Source: Tetramitus jugosus
Taxonomy: Eukaryota > Heterolobosea > Eutetramitea > Acrasida > Vahlkampfiidae
NCBI GenBank assembly: GCA_937625935.1
Contig: OW569370.1
Span: 62,001-126,000 of the forward strand
DNA: 64,000 bases
Direction of reading: 5' to 3'
Made by a program: the position numbers and the translations under genes. The notes under the pieces are model-generated. The model was not told the DNA's origin and ran no database searches. It saw only the letters and a list, made by a program, of their open reading frames with translations. Positions 683 to 27,792 of the stretch are shown here, in pieces. Each line of letters starts with the position of its first letter. Position 1 is the first letter of the stretch.

Positions 683-1054
683 TTATATATCATCCTTGTC
701 CACTGGTTCAAACAATCCAATCATGTGCCCGTCAGGTGCTCTAAGTGATGCAATCTTTCCATGCGAAGGATACTTGATTGGTCCGTCCAATGAAGCTCCC
801 AGCTCTATGCACTTGTAGATGACTCGATCCATCTGTTCGACATTGAAGCACAAGAATGGTGAGTATCCGGTCGTTGCAGGTGCTTCTCCCTCGACCTTGT
901 TCAGCGCAATTTTAATTTGACCTGATTCAAGCTCTGCCCAGTGATCATTCACGAAATTTACTTTGCATCCAAGTGCTTCCTTGTAGAATGTAACAGATTT
1001 GGGAACATCCTTGATCAGGAGCATGACATTCTTGAGAGCAATTCGTCCACTCAT
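683..1054 (-). CDS. VOC / glyoxalase-bleomycin resistance family protein
   Basis: A 123-residue protein of the size of a single VOC (vicinal oxygen chelate) module pair. It has the family's opening beta strand (KNVMLLIKDVPKSVTFYKEA), the 'FYKEALG' helix, a second half beginning FLCFNVEQMD, and the closing strand APDGHMIGLFEP, whose Glu is the usual C-terminal metal ligand. VOC proteins include glyoxalase I, dioxygenases and epimerases; the substrate cannot be read from the sequence. It is divergent from the SAP gene, and the 168-bp gap holds an E2F-like palindrome. The start is the only ATG that gives the complete first strand. Confidence 0.8.
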   Translation of the reverse strand: MSGRIALKNVMLLIKDVPKSVTFYKEALGCKVNFVNDHWAELESGQIKIALNKVEGEAPATTGYSPFLCFNVEQMDRVIYKCIELGASLDGPIKYPSHGKIASLRAPDGHMIGLFEPVDKDDI

Positions 1055-1115: not shown

Positions 1116-1127
1116 TTTGGCGCCAAA
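1116..1127. promoter_or_regulatory. E2F-like palindrome TTTGGCGCCAAA
   Basis: A perfect 12-bp palindrome matching the classical E2F/DP site (TTTSGCGCSAAA). It sits 95 bp upstream of the SAP-protein ATG and 61 bp upstream of the divergent VOC gene. An identical copy occurs at 27781-27792. The assignment to E2F is by motif only. Confidence 0.5.
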
Positions 1128-1222
1128 AAGTCCAAATTTTTTATCGTTAGCCACACCATAACTCTTCTGGGAATTCACAAAACAGAACAAGCAGCAAGAA
1201 GTTCATCACTGTTATTTCAATA

Positions 1223-2839
1223 ATGATTGTCATATCAAGAGCAAATGTTATCAGGAGGAGAAGGAAGCCTCTGGTGCTACCAGAGCAACACAACAAGGAG
1301 AATGAACCCAAAACAACAGTTGATCTTAAAAATTCTTCTTCTTTAGTTAGCAAACAGCCGCAACAACCATCGATGGACAGTGTAGTGGGAACACCTAGGA
1401 GAGGTCTTCAAGATCGTAAAGCATTGGGTACTCTGACTCCTACTGCGAAAATCAATAACCCAACAACAACTGTTGTCACTTCATTGGTTTGGTCAACACA
1501 TACCGAACAACAACCAACAAAAACAAACGCTGACGATGATAAAGAAGGACCATTGAAACGCAGACGAAACAAACGGAAAAGAAACTACACTATTCTTCAA
1601 AGTGCACCTGAAGAGACATGTGACATTAGTGCAGCAGCTGTACTTGTAGTTTCAAATGAAAACAAAAGCAGTTCCGCAAGCAACGAAACAGAAGTCACTG
1701 AGATACAGCCTTCTATGGAGTGTATAGAAATGGAGGAGGCGACCCAGGAACCACAAACAAAAGTTATCTCTAGAAAGAATGTCAAACGAAGACGCAGAGT
1801 ACAGTTAGCAGAGGAAAGAAACGAACAATTCTCGGTGGAGGCAAGAGACGTACATAATCAAATTGATCACTCTAGAGCAAATCAAGCCTGTAATGATGCT
1901 GACGATGAGAGAACTCCAGTCACTCCAGTCGCGCCCAAGGATTCCTCCATTTTTGTTGCTGTGGGCAAGTCACCAAGAACGCCCTGTCGTCTCACACCAA
2001 GAACACCAATGTCGCGAAATCGAAATCGATTAATGACACCTCGATCTACCAGTAGAAGCACCAGTCGCAGAACAAGCTTCTTTTTGTCACCGAACACTGT
2101 TGATATCATGAAGCAAGATGGACGCTATGTTCAAACACCAGTTTTTGACCGTACAATGTCATATCAAAACTTTGTCAACCTGCGAAAGTACAAACGAAAG
2201 AGTACTGAACATCGACCATCGATTGCCTTGGGAATCTCTGTGTCTGATCTGGTGCAATGGTATACGCTAACCGAGCTGAGGTCATACTGTACTTTAAACA
2301 ACAGCAAGTCATGTGGAACGAAGCAGGAGCTTGCAGAACGAATTGTGTCAGAGGTGATACCTCGGCAGGGACCAAACCTCCTCACAACTCCAATGGCAGT
2401 GAGCAAAAACGAACGACACAGGAATGCCTCTCATGCTTCGAGTAAATACTTGTATTTTAATGTTTCGGATGACGAGGATATTGGGCGAGACGATGATAAT
2501 GACTATGGAGAACAGGAAATCTTGTCAGAAGAGTTGCAGTATCTGCGGTTTGAACACGATCCTAACTATGTGTGCCGGAAGCGATCTCGTTCTGCAATAA
2601 TACAAAACAATGAAGAGGAAGAAGGAGAATACAGTCTAAACTTTGACTATTCCAAAGAATCGAAAACAAGACTAGCCAACTTGAGTGTATTGGATTATTA
2701 TCAGGGATTGAAGCTGTACACTCCAGAACTCATGAAGCAATATTGCCGACAGCATAGTCTAATCCATTCTGGCAACAGACAGACACTGAAAAAACGAATA
2801 TTGTCATACATTGAGAAGACTGATGTATGGAAGCAGTAA
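1223..2839 (+). CDS. Nuclear protein with two SAP-like motifs, KEN box, D-box and CDK sites
   Basis: A 538-residue, mostly disordered basic protein. A SAP-like helix-extension-helix (LTELRSYCTLNN...TKQELAERI) lies at about residues 347-374, and a second (LMKQYCRQHSL...RQTLKKRILSYI) closes the protein; SAP motifs bind DNA. The N-terminus carries KEN (25-27, in HNKENEP) followed by RKALGTL (65-71), a KEN box plus D-box as in APC/C substrates such as securin. About a dozen S/T-P sites cluster at 245-285 (KSPRTPCRLTPRTPMSR), typical CDK targets. The basic block VISRANVIRRRR at residues 3-14 is repeated as VISRKNVKRRRR near residue 180. Together with the upstream E2F-like site this suggests a cell-cycle-regulated chromatin protein. 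The family is not recognised; the degrons are inferred. Confidence 0.7.
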   Translation: MIVISRANVIRRRRKPLVLPEQHNKENEPKTTVDLKNSSSLVSKQPQQPSMDSVVGTPRRGLQDRKALGTLTPTAKINNPTTTVVTSLVWSTHTEQQPTKTNADDDKEGPLKRRRNKRKRNYTILQSAPEETCDISAAAVLVVSNENKSSSASNETEVTEIQPSMECIEMEEATQEPQTKVISRKNVKRRRRVQLAEERNEQFSVEARDVHNQIDHSRANQACNDADDERTPVTPVAPKDSSIFVAVGKSPRTPCRLTPRTPMSRNRNRLMTPRSTSRSTSRRTSFFLSPNTVDIMKQDGRYVQTPVFDRTMSYQNFVNLRKYKRKSTEHRPSIALGISVSDLVQWYTLTELRSYCTLNNSKSCGTKQELAERIVSEVIPRQGPNLLTTPMAVSKNERHRNASHASSKYLYFNVSDDEDIGRDDDNDYGEQEILSEELQYLRFEHDPNYVCRKRSRSAIIQNNEEEEGEYSLNFDYSKESKTRLANLSVLDYYQGLKLYTPELMKQYCRQHSLIHSGNRQTLKKRILSYIEKTDVWKQ

Positions 2840-2992
2840 AGAAGTCAATTTTTTTGTTATCTTCCCTCAACCAAACCAAGAAAAAATGAAAGGGAAGAAC
2901 ATCATATGATGTGAGGTGCTAATAAAAAGCAAACAGAATGAAAGTGAGAAACAAACACATCAGCTAGAAACGCCATCATAACTCAAAAACAA

Positions 2993-4261
2993 ATGAACGC
3001 GAGAGTAAAGGCAGTCCTCCTGACATGTATTGTGGTTTTCATTGTGTTGCAAGGAGTATTCGATATCAAGCGGTCAAAGGTAATTCGACCTGGTAGTGCA
3101 CAAGTAGACTCCCAAGATCTGATAAGAAATGAACCTGATGAAGTCTTACCAATCGGTAACGTAGAATCATCCTTCAACCTTACTAAAAAGTATCTCATTA
3201 CAGTTCACAAGTCAGGGTTGAACAATTATGTCAGGGCTTTAGCTGATGCCGCGTACCTTTTGGTACAAATGAATGACACGAGTATCACACTACTCATACA
3301 TCCGAACATACAGAACGCACACTCGAAATCGAAAGCATTCACCAACGGGGGAAGAGGAAAGATTCTATTCCCTAAGATTAGTGAACGTAGTCTACAATTC
3401 TCTGAATTATTTCAACTTCCAACAGGTTCTCTTCACACCGTAGTTCATCGAGATAATGGGAATGCCACTACGAGAGTGACAAATAACTTTCGATTGAACT
3501 ATGAGATTGCAACTCCAAAGTTGTTACGTGCTTTGATCAAGGAAACAAGTTCGAATCGATCACCATTCAAAGTTGGTAACTGTTGGAGAGAAACCAACAT
3601 CGTCGAACAGAAATCGAAAGAGTTTATCAAATGTATTGCCCGCCACTTTCGGAACGATGCCCAACTAGTAGCTCTTCATATGCTGTCAACAAAAAATTTG
3701 GGAGTGGAGAATGTTCCTGATTTACAACCATCTCTCTATGAAATGATCTATGCCACATTTCATACACAGAACAGTATTGATATTAGAGAGTCAACCATCA
3801 TGATTCATCTGAGATTGGGAGATTTCAAGAAATATTGTACTGGACAAATTGATTGTTATTTCGACATGGCCGATGTGGAGCCTCATATTCTACAACTCCA
3901 AAACACTACAGGTGCCAAGCATGTTCTAATCATGACTAATCCCATTCCGAAATTCAAGAGGGACAACGATCCGACAATTGCGATTATCCGTAAACATCCA
4001 GACTGGCACTTAAGTATGGACATGATTGAACAAAGCAAGAGCATTCCCCGCAGGATGAAACAAGATATCAATGCATTTCTCGTATTGGAAATGGCTGCTG
4101 CTATTTCTTCCAAGTACTTCGTTGGAAATCGAATTTCGACCGTAGCTCGATCCATTGCTCTCCTTCGAAAGAGACAGAATAAGGCTCAAAGCACTGCCAT
4201 CAGTTTCACAACACTGGTAGGGGTCCCAGGTTGTTTCCAGTGTGCAGACCTTTTTGTATGA
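2993..4261 (+). CDS. Type II membrane glycosyltransferase, fucosyltransferase-like
   Basis: 422 residues. A single hydrophobic segment at residues 8-22 (VLLTCIVVFIVLQGVF) after a short basic N-terminus marks a Golgi signal anchor. The lumenal part has HLRLGDF near residue 269, resembling the HxRRxD motif of GDP-fucose transferases, and a later segment AAAISSKYFVGNRISTVARS that matches the 'FIGN..S..S' donor-site block of the alpha-1,2/alpha-1,6 and O-fucosyltransferase superfamily. Several N-glycosylation sequons are present. The likely role is transfer of fucose from GDP-fucose in the Golgi. The Leu in place of the usual second Arg of motif I is a caution, so donor and acceptor are uncertain. 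Confidence 0.55.
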   Translation: MNARVKAVLLTCIVVFIVLQGVFDIKRSKVIRPGSAQVDSQDLIRNEPDEVLPIGNVESSFNLTKKYLITVHKSGLNNYVRALADAAYLLVQMNDTSITLLIHPNIQNAHSKSKAFTNGGRGKILFPKISERSLQFSELFQLPTGSLHTVVHRDNGNATTRVTNNFRLNYEIATPKLLRALIKETSSNRSPFKVGNCWRETNIVEQKSKEFIKCIARHFRNDAQLVALHMLSTKNLGVENVPDLQPSLYEMIYATFHTQNSIDIRESTIMIHLRLGDFKKYCTGQIDCYFDMADVEPHILQLQNTTGAKHVLIMTNPIPKFKRDNDPTIAIIRKHPDWHLSMDMIEQSKSIPRRMKQDINAFLVLEMAAAISSKYFVGNRISTVARSIALLRKRQNKAQSTAISFTTLVGVPGCFQCADLFV

Positions 4262-4462
4262 TAAAGAGACACAAGAAGAGACACAGCTCTCTGAATTGGA
4301 ATGTCCTAAAACCCGGTTGTATTTGTGGCATTCCTGTCGTAAAATTGTACCACAACAAAAATCTCCTTTGTTCCGGTCAGTTCAAAACAAAGATCAAACA
4401 ACAACAAACAAAAACAAGTACAATTCTTTGAACAAAACAAGTAAGATCTGAGTGAGTGAAAA

Positions 4463-5944
4463 ATGGTGTTTCATCGTTTGTTGAACCTTGTATCTCCCAT
4501 GGGTGACCTACCTAGACCTACTGGCCGTTTCCAAAACAATATCGCTACTCAGGAACTGTTGTTGCATGAAGAGAAGCTCTTGTTGTGCAAGGTGTGGTAT
4601 CCAAGCAACATTGACTTTACCAATAGCACCACTAGTTGTAACGAAGAAGAAGAAACCTTGTTCCATCGATCTGAATACGTTCAATCGAAATACTTTCCCT
4701 ATTTGAGCTCTGTGCTCAGTATGCCACTGTTTTTGGTGCGTAGATACTTTTCCATTGGAGTTCACAGTTGGAGGCGAGGATCATTGGACAAGATAAATGA
4801 GATGTCAACGAAGGATGAAACACTCAAGCAATACCAAGAAGAAGCAGAACTTGCACTCCATTCATCCATTGACAAGTATCCATGTGTTGTATTTTGTGCT
4901 GGTCTCTATGGCATGCCAGAACACTATACTGCCATTTGTGAGGAGTTAGCATCGCATGGCTATGTTGTGTTGGCGCCGTATCATACGGATGGGAGTTGTC
5001 CTGCAGTGTTGACCGAAATGGGGGAAATTCATTGGGAGCAGGGCAAGGAGCACTATGTCGATGTGACTCGAATGGAGGACAAGGAACATGTCAAGACTGG
5101 AATGGAAAAGTATAGAGCGAGTCAAATTGAGATTCGAAGCTTGGATGTGTTGGAAGTGTTGAAAACATTGGAAGAGTATTGCAATCATGATGGATCTGTA
5201 AATAGTAGTAGTAGTAATCATACAAATGGTGGTAGTAGTGATCATAATAATGGCGATGTTTATCATGCAAAGGCGTTCCCAGGATTCGATATATTCAAGA
5301 ATCGGATCGATATGAATCGGTTGGCATGTATAGGACATAGTTTTGGTGGTGGAACAGCTGTGAGTGCAATTACGTGGATGCACGAACAAACCAATGAACC
5401 TTACTTTAAAATTGGAATATCTCTGGATGGATGGATGGAACCATTGAATTTTGGCAATGATCTGTCTAAACTGAGCCTAGACACAACAATAACAGCAGCT
5501 CACAACAATGGTAGTGGATCTGAATCGACAACTGAACCATTTCTACACCGATTAATCAAAATGAACCAAGCTCTTTCGATGAATGACAAGAGCAAGCCAC
5601 CAGTTCTTGCATTCATCAATAGTGAAGTGTGGCAATGGGAGGAAAACAAGAGAATTATGAAGCAAATTGCCGATTATTGGAGCAAAATGTCGCGAGTGTA
5701 CATGTGGTCCATGCCACAATCCGGACATCACAATTACAATGACATTGGCTTGTTGATGCCAAAGTTTGGTCGACTGATCAAGATCCTAAAAACAAATTTG
5801 GACCCTGTGAAGCACATGGCAGATTTGAATCAAAATTTGGTAGATTTATTGGAGCTTCATTTGAATTCTGCACAGAACAGTGCATCCCTCGAATCGAAAT
5901 TTGATTCATTCATTTACCAGAGCAAGCCAAGCTCCAACGAGTAA
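4463..5944 (+). CDS. Platelet-activating factor acetylhydrolase (plasma/type II family)
   Basis: 493 residues of the alpha/beta-hydrolase PAF-AH family, which removes the sn-2 acetyl or short oxidised acyl group from phospholipids (EC 3.1.1.47). The triad is readable: nucleophile Ser293 in GHSFGGGT, Asp322 in SLDGWMEP (compare LDAWM in the mammalian enzyme) and His422 in SGHHNYNDI. The typical ELASHGYVVLAPYHTDGS strand-loop and an N-terminal region starting at MGDLPRPTGRF are present. A Ser/Asn/Gly-rich insert of about 30 residues precedes the nucleophile elbow. No signal peptide is seen, so it is probably cytosolic like PAF-AH II. It converges on the F-box-like gene with only 32 bp between stops. 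Confidence 0.88.
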   Translation: MVFHRLLNLVSPMGDLPRPTGRFQNNIATQELLLHEEKLLLCKVWYPSNIDFTNSTTSCNEEEETLFHRSEYVQSKYFPYLSSVLSMPLFLVRRYFSIGVHSWRRGSLDKINEMSTKDETLKQYQEEAELALHSSIDKYPCVVFCAGLYGMPEHYTAICEELASHGYVVLAPYHTDGSCPAVLTEMGEIHWEQGKEHYVDVTRMEDKEHVKTGMEKYRASQIEIRSLDVLEVLKTLEEYCNHDGSVNSSSSNHTNGGSSDHNNGDVYHAKAFPGFDIFKNRIDMNRLACIGHSFGGGTAVSAITWMHEQTNEPYFKIGISLDGWMEPLNFGNDLSKLSLDTTITAAHNNGSGSESTTEPFLHRLIKMNQALSMNDKSKPPVLAFINSEVWQWEENKRIMKQIADYWSKMSRVYMWSMPQSGHHNYNDIGLLMPKFGRLIKILKTNLDPVKHMADLNQNLVDLLELHLNSAQNSASLESKFDSFIYQSKPSSNE

Positions 5945-5976
5945 AGTCAATAGTCAAACGTATTACATCACATTGT

Positions 5977-7032
5977 TCAACGTGGCCTATTAAGTAGTTC
6001 GGTCAGTACTTGCTGCGCGTAAGAAACTTCCCCTTGTAGATTTCGAGGTTGATAGACTGGGTTGAGTTGAGGAGATTGTGAACTTGGCCATTGACTTTCA
6101 CTTGCAAGTTTGTTTGGCTCTGGTGATATCAATCCGAAGGGAGGAGGTGGTGGAGGTTCCAGACCTCCGAGTTGAGCATTGAACTTTTGAGCGCGATGCT
6201 TCATATCAATCTTCTTGATTGCATCACTAAAATCATGTCCCAACTCATCCATGGTATATTTTTCACAAAAGTCTCTCTTTCTCGATTCAATGTCGTCCAA
6301 ACTGAACCAGTGCTGACACCTACTACATCGAAGAACCTTCTCTTGCTCTGTCTTTCTCAATTTGAATGCTTTCATAAATGACTCTCTGGGATTGACACCA
6401 CCGTGGAGCACACCGACGCGCGAACACGAAGCTGTCCAGTAATTTGTCGCCTGTTTCTTCAGACTCACATATTGTTCATACTGCAATGTCATACTGGAAT
6501 CGAGCATTATTGCACTATTCTCGTTGTGGTCGTTCTCGCCCCTTTCGCCATTCATCGTGATCAGTTTGACTTGATCATAACTCAAAGTATCCCAGTCGAG
6601 CAAATTGCGAACAGCATTGTAAAATGGCTTGGAAACAAATTGAATTGTCATGAGCAATTCAATGGCATCGACATAGAGCATCATGTGGAACAAGATGTCA
6701 CTGTGAAGAAAGACAGAGTGATCATATTGTTGTTGACTCTCCGAAGCACTTGCACCACCATTTGCACGTTCTTGTTCTTGTTGTTCCGAGAGCTGAAAAG
6801 TGCCTTGAACAATGTGTTGCATCTTATCATGCACCTTGAGCTCAATTCTCAACCTTTGAATCTCACTCACAGGCAAAGATAGCGGTTGTTCACCTTTCTG
6901 GATCAATATGTCAATGATTCGATTTCTTTCATCCCATGGAATGTAGTACTTCCATTCAACATCATCTCTGTAGTAAAGACGCAGAACACGATCTCTGGTC
7001 ATTTTTTGTTTTTTCTTTCTCTTTGAGGTCAT
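5977..7032 (-). CDS. F-box-like protein with CxxC segment and poly-Pro
   Basis: 351 residues, starting at the ATG at 7032 (the frame opens six bases earlier with GTG). The N-terminus is strongly basic (TSKRKKKQK). A degenerate F-box-like helical stretch (FLHSDILFHMMLYVDAIELL...VSKPFYNAV) lies near residues 110-143. It is followed by a cysteine pair, RCSRCQHWF, with a later Cys (DFCEKY) that may form an incomplete zinc site, and a seven-Pro run (GLEPPPPPPFG) in the Pro/Ser-rich tail. An SCF adaptor role is inferred from the F-box only; no substrate-binding repeat is recognised. It is divergent from the next gene across a 110-bp gap holding a TTGGGCGGGA box. Confidence 0.6.
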   Translation of the reverse strand: MTSKRKKKQKMTRDRVLRLYYRDDVEWKYYIPWDERNRIIDILIQKGEQPLSLPVSEIQRLRIELKVHDKMQHIVQGTFQLSEQQEQERANGGASASESQQQYDHSVFLHSDILFHMMLYVDAIELLMTIQFVSKPFYNAVRNLLDWDTLSYDQVKLITMNGERGENDHNENSAIMLDSSMTLQYEQYVSLKKQATNYWTASCSRVGVLHGGVNPRESFMKAFKLRKTEQEKVLRCSRCQHWFSLDDIESRKRDFCEKYTMDELGHDFSDAIKKIDMKHRAQKFNAQLGGLEPPPPPPFGLISPEPNKLASESQWPSSQSPQLNPVYQPRNLQGEVSYAQQVLTELLNRPR

Positions 7033-24191: not shown

Positions 24192-26037
24192 ATGTCTTCC
24201 TCTTCCTCTTCACCAGCCAGAAGAAACACCACTTCCAAGCCAGATGATTCCTTTGTGTCCAGTCTAGCTAAAACCTGTAAGGATGTTGAGAATGTAACAT
24301 TTATTATTTTCGGTGCTTCTGGAGGTATGGTATCAAGTATTCTAGATCTAGACGTGTGTGCCTTTTTGTTGTTGTCACATTGCTAATCCTCTCATGATCA
24401 TCCTCTCATGTTTGTTCGTTCATTTGGTTGTCATCCAATGTTTTGTTGTTTGCTGTATTGTTTGCATGTGTGTGAACAATTGATGTCATGTATCATCAGA
24501 TCTTGCCAAGAGGAAGATTTATCCTGCCATTTTTGACATTTTCAAGAGCGGTTATGCACCAAGAAATTGGAGAGTGGTCGGATATGCAAGAAGTGCCATG
24601 TCCATGGATCAACTCAAGGAGAATGTGAGACCTTTTATGAGTGAGGGCAAAGAAGGCAAACTGGAGGAATTCTTCAAGCACTGTAGCTACTTGAGTGGTC
24701 AATATGACAATGATGAAGACTATCAAAAGTTGGACCAGTTTATTACAGAGCAGGAGGAGCAATGTGAGGCTTGTTCACACGGAAAGGCCAATCGTATCTT
24801 TTATTTGAGTTTGCCACCCAATGTGTTTTTGGATGCTGCGATCCGAACGGGTAAGAATTGTAAATCAAAGAATGGTTTCAGCAGAATTGTGATTGAGAAG
24901 CCATTTGGTAGAGATTTGGAGAGCTTTGAGGAGTTGTCTCGTGGGATCAATGCCATTTATTCGCAGGATGAAATTTATCGTATTGATCACTATATCGGTA
25001 AGGAAGTGGTTCAGAATTTGTTGGTTCTTCGATTGGCAAACGTCATTTTTGATCCACTGTGGAACCGATCTGCCATTAAGTCTGTTCAGATCATTTTCAA
25101 GGAGCAGTTGGGTGTCGAGGGCAGAGGTGCCTATTTTGACAACTATGGTATCATTAGAGATGTGATGCAGAATCATTTGATGCAGATTTTGGCATTGATC
25201 AGTATGGAACCACCAACTTCTCTCTCTGCAGAGGACATTAGAAGTGAAAAGGTGAAGGTTTTGAGAAGCATTGAGCCTGTCACAAGAGAAAACATTGTCA
25301 TTGGTCAATACAAGGGCAAGGGAGATCAACCAGGTTATAGAGAGGATAGAACTGTGCCAGAGGACTCATTGACACCAACATTTGCTGCCTGTGCATTGAA
25401 GATTAAGAACAGAAGATGGGACGGTGTTCCATTCTTGCTCATGTGTGGTAAGGGATTGGACGAAAGAGTGGCTGAGATTAGAATTCAATTCCATGAAGTT
25501 CCTGCAAACTTGTACACATTTGCGTCAGTCACACCAAATGAATTGGTCATTCGTGTTCAACCAAACGAATCCATCTACTTTAAGATTATGAACAAAGTTC
25601 CTGGATATGGTGATCGATTGACTGAATCACAGTTGGATTTCACCTACAAGTCCAAGTATAGCACCAGAATTCCAGATGCGTACGAAAGATTGTTGTTCAA
25701 TGTGCTGAGAGGTGATGAAACTGATTTTGTGGCAGAAGAAGAGTTGAGGATCTCATGGAAGATCTTCTCTCCATTATTGCATGAGTTGGAGGAGAAGCAC
25801 GTTGCGCCAGAGTTGTATCAATTCGGCAGCAAGGGTCCTGATTCTCTTCATTATTTGGCCGGTACGTGTTTCGTTGATCTCTAATTGCTTTCATCCATTC
25901 GCTAACTCTAAACCCTTAATATCTAATTTGCACTGACCATTAATATTTATGATTACGTTATTCATTTTGCAGCCAAATACGGTGTCAAGGTAGGTTCAAG
26001 CAACAATTCATCTTTTAATAACAACAGCGAGAAATAA
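24192..26037 (+). CDS. G6PD: Glucose-6-phosphate 1-dehydrogenase
   Basis: Exons 24192-24324, 24500-25861 and 25973-26037. Introns of 175 bp (GTATGG...CAG) and 111 bp (GTACGT...CAG). Splicing rebuilds FGASGDLAKRKIYPAIF across junction 1 and SLHYLAAKYGVK across junction 2, both family signatures. 519 residues. Other marks are the EKPFGRD segment and the active-site RIDHYIGKE. The enzyme makes 6-phosphogluconolactone and NADPH (EC 1.1.1.49), feeding the 6PGDH encoded nearby. The C-terminus is unusually Asn/Ser-rich (SSNNSSFNNNSEK), and a further splice at AAG/GTAGGT near 25990 cannot be excluded. No lactonase fusion is seen. Confidence 0.94.
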
Positions 26038-27780: not shown

Positions 27781-27792
27781 TTTGGCGCCAAA
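27781..27792. promoter_or_regulatory. E2F-like palindrome TTTGGCGCCAAA, second copy
   Basis: Identical to 1116-1127. It starts 2 bp after the stop of the F-box/YwqG gene and ends 86 bp before the ATG at 27879, so it is placed to act on that gene. Confidence 0.5.

Follow-up and report, generated by a model that had tools for sequence, protein, structure and literature searches.

On balance, the 64-kb window (the whole stretch of DNA analysed here) probably encodes a lineage-specific chromatin protein that is induced by E2F, phosphorylated by CDK and cleared by the APC/C, working in the manner of NuSAP1; this reading is drawn from sequence. We refer to the product as the SAP protein, after its two SAP domains, and the features on which the reading depends are collected in Table 1. 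In the proposed sequence of events, E2F/DP bound at the palindromic site TTTGGCGCCAAA would switch the SAP gene on around G1/S, and the basic tracts would carry its product into the nucleus, where the two SAP domains may keep it on DNA. CDK phosphorylation of the basic S/T-P cluster would tune DNA binding in mitosis, and the APC/C, together with Cdc20 or Cdh1, would recognise the N-terminal KEN box and D-box and remove the protein at mitotic exit. More probably than a securin, such a protein is a helper associated with chromosomes; whether its exact job there lies in spindle attachment, in compaction or in cohesion is a matter of guesswork. The novelty is modest, that of an orphan protein under a known combination of controls.

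Table 1. Features of the SAP gene and related features. Positions are those of the window unless a locus is named.
Feature	Position	Strand	Remarks
Divergent neighbour, glyoxalase-domain protein	683..1054	-	123 aa; PF00903, E 2.8e-11
TTTGGCGCCAAA, palindromic E2F-type site	1116..1127	.	95 bp upstream of the ATG at 1223
SAP-protein ORF	1223..2839	+	538 aa from first in-frame ATG; no visible intron
Basic tract RRRRK, NLS-like	1253..1267	+	residues 11-15
KEN box	1295..1303	+	residues 25-27
D-box RKALGTL	1415..1435	+	residues 65-71; next residues TP
Basic tract KRRRNKRKR, NLS-like	1556..1582	+	residues 112-120
Basic tract KRRRR, NLS-like	1784..1798	+	residues 188-192
S/T-P cluster	1913..2140	+	residues 231-306; 9 of 13 S/T-P sites; within a strongly basic stretch
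SAP domain 1	2213..2362	+	about residues 331-380
SAP domain 2	2681..2821	+	about residues 487-533; best stretch 504-532
Separase-type gene	L052 (G000:C8:184500-193500), 2296-6414	-	TTTGGCGC 53 bp upstream of first ATG

The SAP-protein frame was characterized by its codon usage, which resembled that of six neighbouring ORFs, while that of the other two forward frames did not (all nine 60-codon segments); in the reverse direction one frame was compared, across the entire protein, and it too differed from the neighbouring ORFs. The protein is basic (pI 9.4), with an acidic stretch (residues 400-480, pI 4.3) between the two SAP domains. A structure model of the full-length protein had a mean pLDDT of 38, and confidence was low outside the SAP domains, the N-terminus included. 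The protein is thus probably disordered outside these domains, although low pLDDT in a model built without an alignment is weak evidence of this.

Profile searches upheld an earlier claim of two SAP-like motifs: both SAP (PF02037, 31.4 bits against a curated cut-off of 23.9) and SAP_new25 (PF18953, 39.7 bits against 26.3) matched two stretches of the protein. A single SAP domain, taken by itself when the genome was searched, reached 21.6 bits, under the cut-off. The genome (26.3 Mb in 56 contigs, of which the window is G000:C27:62001-126000) contains 17 SAP places, 12 of them above the cut-off. When the whole protein was searched against PDB by sequence no match was obtained, and a profile search of PDB with SAP recovered Hcc-1 (E 0.0011), with weaker matches to MKL1, Ku70, DEK and THO1. 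The two best rows of the profile search, designed repeat proteins with only 14 positions matched, and several picornavirus polyprotein chains that scored between SAP rows were taken as chance matches. Fold comparison placed the SAP domains of Hcc-1, Tho1 and others at the top, with those of FAN1 and Ku70 also in the lists, the likeness in fold being weak. Proteins of 1069 and 527 aa on C17 and C34 (L050 and L051) have a similar SAP module that starts RPSI; the modules are 31-32% identical over the stretch, and no further Pfam domain was found. These proteins were rejected as full relatives, since one SAP module is all that they have in common with the SAP protein, and TTTSSCGCSAAA is absent from the pieces fetched around them.

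The KEN and RKALGTL words that the sequence-only reading had described in the N-terminus are both present at the residues it had named, within the region of predicted disorder, as expected of an APC/C substrate (again on the weak evidence of pLDDT without an alignment). Their frequency was gauged against shuffled sequences and a background of 144 further ORFs (200 aa or longer) drawn from the window and the fetched loci; some of these are perhaps not genes, and copies of the SAP protein itself had been removed. A KEN word by itself means little, since it turns up in 16% of shuffles and 14 of the 144 ORFs. The combination of KEN and the strict D-box pattern Rx[AP]Lxx[ILV] was found in 0.9% of shuffles and one ORF, and KEN with RxALGx[ILV], a pattern chosen after the sequence was seen, in 0.025% of shuffles. 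Genome-wide, the RKALG-type DNA pattern occurred at five places compared with four in the control and hence is not enriched. The words at the other four places, RKAFGEL (open stretch of 78 aa), RKAFGEV and SKALGAL (28 and 38 aa) and RKALGNF (584-aa frame), were each judged unconvincing as signs of a degron protein.

An earlier claim of clustered S/T-P-R/K sites stands for the cluster and less so for the sites. The protein has 13 S/T-P sites, up to eight of them per 60 residues, a density that 20,000 shuffles never reached and that one of the 144 ORFs did; the surrounding residues 230-345 have a pI of 11.7. Only four sites are S/T-P-R/K (0.8% of shuffles reach four), and only two have the full CDK consensus S/T-P-x-K/R, a number reached by 20% of shuffles. 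The one background ORF with such a cluster, of 423 aa at L032 (G000:C4:138694-143705), has eight S/T-P per 60 residues, an internal E2F palindrome and no Pfam match. Prediction of APC/C substrates from KEN and cycling mRNA has been reported, with chromatin regulators prominent among them (PMC7758050).

Could these words be chance occurrences in a long disordered protein? The SAP protein would then be an ordinary nucleic-acid-binding protein of mRNA export, RNP or repair, like THO1/Hcc-1, Ku70 or FAN1, with the upstream site serving the divergent glyoxalase-domain gene. The SAP-led profile and fold matches, the number of SAP places in the genome, the commonness of KEN and the divergent promoter all suit such a protein, whereas the rarity of KEN with a strict D-box and of the S/T-P cluster, together with a D-box form similar to that of cyclins, speaks against it. 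A chromatin protein would, moreover, be a likelier E2F target than a glyoxalase-domain gene, and we regard an ordinary SAP protein as unlikely.

Genes expected of APC/C control were identified by profile. Among 182 WD40 matches, three were above the Cdc20/Fizzy family cut-off (414-437 bits; C36 and C42); Naegleria is reported to have one Cdc20 and one Cdh1 (PMC3195147). The N-termini of four cyclins, from 13 Cyclin_N matches, were read, and three carry R-x-[AP]-L-x-x-I D-boxes (QRSALGDISN, RAPLASISN and ERIALSNITT); no D-box word was recognisable in the fourth. RKALGTLTP and QRSALGDISN have the core R-x-A-L-G-x-[IL] in common, with a P at the end of the former where two of the cyclin D-boxes have N. 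As far as sequence can indicate, three Cdc20/Cdh1-type genes and cyclin D-boxes of similar form fit control of the SAP protein by the APC/C.

The promoter had also been called E2F-like. TTTGGCGCCAAA is indeed present upstream of the SAP gene far above chance expectation, but the promoter is common to the glyoxalase-domain gene, which starts 61 bp from the site on the minus strand. The 12-mer occurs twice in the window against 0.003 copies expected, and 141 times in the genome against about 1.3 expected from composition and none for the reversed control. The second copy in the window (27781-27792) is followed 86 bp later by the ATG (27879) of a 658-aa ORF that matched no Pfam family. The looser TTTSSCGCSAAA matched 247 times on one strand and 258 on the other, each palindrome scoring on both, compared with four and two in the control.

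We examined 34 palindromic TTTSGCGCSAAA sites, comprising the 32 listed from C1 to C7:182125 and the two in the window; the window site, which L001 also contains, was counted once. Twenty-five precede the start of an ORF (150 aa or longer) by no more than 250 bp, as do 19% of random positions when the fetched loci are pooled with the window and 15% in the window alone (binomial P < 1e-11). Nine sites are away from ORF starts; six fall within an ORF, one of these also being upstream of another ORF. Thirty ORFs at or near the sites were scanned with Pfam and 18 scored above a family cut-off. Four of these (Nuf2, Ctf8, topoisomerase II and a BRCT protein) have an evident part in replicating or segregating chromosomes, and 14 have no plain chromosome role (e.g. 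ELO, EBP, mitochondrial carrier, TFIIF-beta, Hsp70 and POP1).

E2F/DP-domain matches were found at four places in three loci, on C22, C8 and C42, the last with two domains close together. The neighbouring E2F/DP DNA-binding domains on C42 (L054, G000:C42:86273-87078) are paired as in atypical E2F7/8-type proteins, and TTTGGCGC lies about 1 kb before the first of them (L054 790). MCM matches were found at eight loci, and upstream pieces of 1.5 kb were examined for the seven other than C38. The core TTTSSCGC is present in five of the seven and absent from L066 and L072. In four of the five, all but L068, it lies about 35-110 bp ahead of the earliest ATG in the frame that runs on into the gene; three of those frames (L069, L070 and L071) were Pfam-confirmed as MCM. 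By way of background, the 64-kb window contains seven TTTSSCGC matches, four of which come from its two palindromes, and the four cyclin pieces contain none. With an E2F-type site in the SAP promoter, E2F/DP genes in the genome and such sites at promoters genome-wide, TTTGGCGCCAAA is very probably the E2F site of this organism, E2F itself being the presumed binding factor; having an E2F-type site is not in itself proof that a particular gene is under cell-cycle control. E2F in such lineages is not new, because E2F families have been reported in lineages that include Excavata (PMC4862756). Among the matches listed in the open-licence literature, PMC3195147, PMC4862756 and PMC9036621 included, we found no study of securin or E2F sites in Heterolobosea.

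The same promoter evidence could point to an S-phase replication or repair factor, induced by E2F, bound to DNA through SAP and removed by APC/C-Cdh1 after use, as licensing factors are. The E2F core at MCM genes and near Ctf8 and BRCT genes favours this reading, as do the SAP domains of repair proteins such as FAN1 and Ku70 among the fold matches. Yet the SAP protein has no Pfam match to a catalytic or replication domain and no PIP-box word (sororin-type FGF, TFK, ABBA-like and CRY words were likewise absent), and its S/T-P cluster, KEN and D-box would fit a mitotic role equally well or better. A replication or repair factor accordingly seems rather improbable.

The sequence-only reading had also suggested a securin-like role. 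In human securin a KEN box near the N-terminus comes before a D-box of the RKALG type, and the SAP protein has the same order. Since three cyclins carry similar D-boxes, however, this likeness may be a generic D-box likeness. A lineage-specific securin would bind and inhibit separase until destroyed by the APC/C at anaphase; a separase gene is present in the genome, and an E2F core lies upstream of both it and the SAP gene. The Pfam securin family (PF04856) had no match in the genome or the SAP protein, and was silent in every control genome too. According to Eme et al. (PMC3195147), securins are found only in Metazoa and Fungi and the two are called non-homologous, so sequence unlikeness is compatible with a securin; PATRONUS was later reported as the plant securin (PMC7943633). 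In human securin a degron-bearing N-terminus is followed by the pseudosubstrate EIEKFFP and then by LPE (PMC6858450, PMC10317155). The SAP protein, on the other hand, lacks both an [SDE]xExxxP pseudosubstrate and NxLxPhiE (motifs from PMC6858450 and PMC10317155), and its single LPE (residues 19-21) precedes the degrons, an order opposite to that of human securin. With a basic pI and two SAP domains besides, it shares the type of degron, beyond which the securin-like label is not supported, and a true securin is very improbable. Hardly more credible is the idea that the lineage's missing guardian of separase is a securin, or a protector of cohesion, which SAP domains have tied to DNA; it would be made with separase under E2F, destroyed by the APC/C and a non-homologous replacement of the kind known between the securins of animals and fungi.

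No relative of the SAP protein was retrieved at E 10 or better from the protein database with either the whole protein or residues 318-538, nor was one found in scans of viral and prokaryote contigs. A diverged orthologue could escape the protein search, which depends on 5-residue words in common and on proteins of similar length. A neighbouring ORF for glucose-6-phosphate dehydrogenase (window 24598-25884) is 63% identical to its counterpart in Acrasis kona, 60% in Willaertia magna and 58% in Naegleria lovaniensis; it is also 100% identical to one protein tagged jgi only and 85-91% to four in jgi/lgn sets, which represent close relatives known from environmental sequence. Because the database thus holds proteins of N. 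lovaniensis, Willaertia and Acrasis, a well-conserved orthologue there is unlikely. The earlier assumption that the DNA comes from a Naegleria is probably wrong, given that this one enzyme is closer to Acrasis; judged by it, the organism is probably a heterolobosean other than the known Naegleria.

A cell-cycle-controlled chromatin protein, as had been proposed, gains from the genome-wide E2F-type sites, the E2F/DP, separase and Cdc20/Cdh1-type genes and the cyclin D-boxes, and we infer it with corresponding caution. Against it count the commonness of KEN, the number of full CDK consensus sites (only two), the unenriched RKALG word, the lack of any orthologue in the searches and the promoter shared with the glyoxalase-domain gene. 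So do the 14 Pfam-recognised genes near such sites with no plain chromosome role, the sites away from ORF starts or inside ORFs, and the two MCM and four cyclin pieces in which the core is missing. The SAP protein is a definite candidate for a chromosome protein specific to its lineage, within a group that has an unusual closed mitosis and spindle, studied in Naegleria. An E2F-type promoter set spanning MCM, separase, Nuf2, Ctf8 and topoisomerase II can be read directly from the genome, and therefore a signature of E2F site, KEN and D-box could be used to look for further unknown division proteins.

Among known systems, the securins (PTTG1, Pds1 and PATRONUS) offer, in the human protein, the same order of KEN and RKALG-type D-box, and the SAP protein differs from them in its basic character, its SAP domains and its lack of a pseudosubstrate motif. 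Hcc-1/THO1, DEK and Ku70 share the SAP sequence and may, on weak matches, share the SAP fold, and their overall architecture is unlike that of the SAP protein. E2F/DP targets such as MCM in the same genome resemble the SAP gene in having an E2F-type site shortly upstream of the ATG, from which the SAP gene differs in having no recognisable replication domain. The NUSAP domain (PF16006) had no match in the SAP protein or the genome, and the control genomes were silent too; the likeness to NuSAP1 proposed here is one of working mode, not of family membership or microtubule binding. NuSAP1 is described as a SAP-domain protein of the chromosome and spindle that the APC/C removes through its KEN box, and its SAP domain for chromatin binding and its KEN recognised by the APC/C are the features to which we liken those of the SAP protein, with the difference that SAP lies in the N-terminal region of NuSAP1 and two SAP domains lie in the C-terminal half of the SAP protein (PMC10650578).
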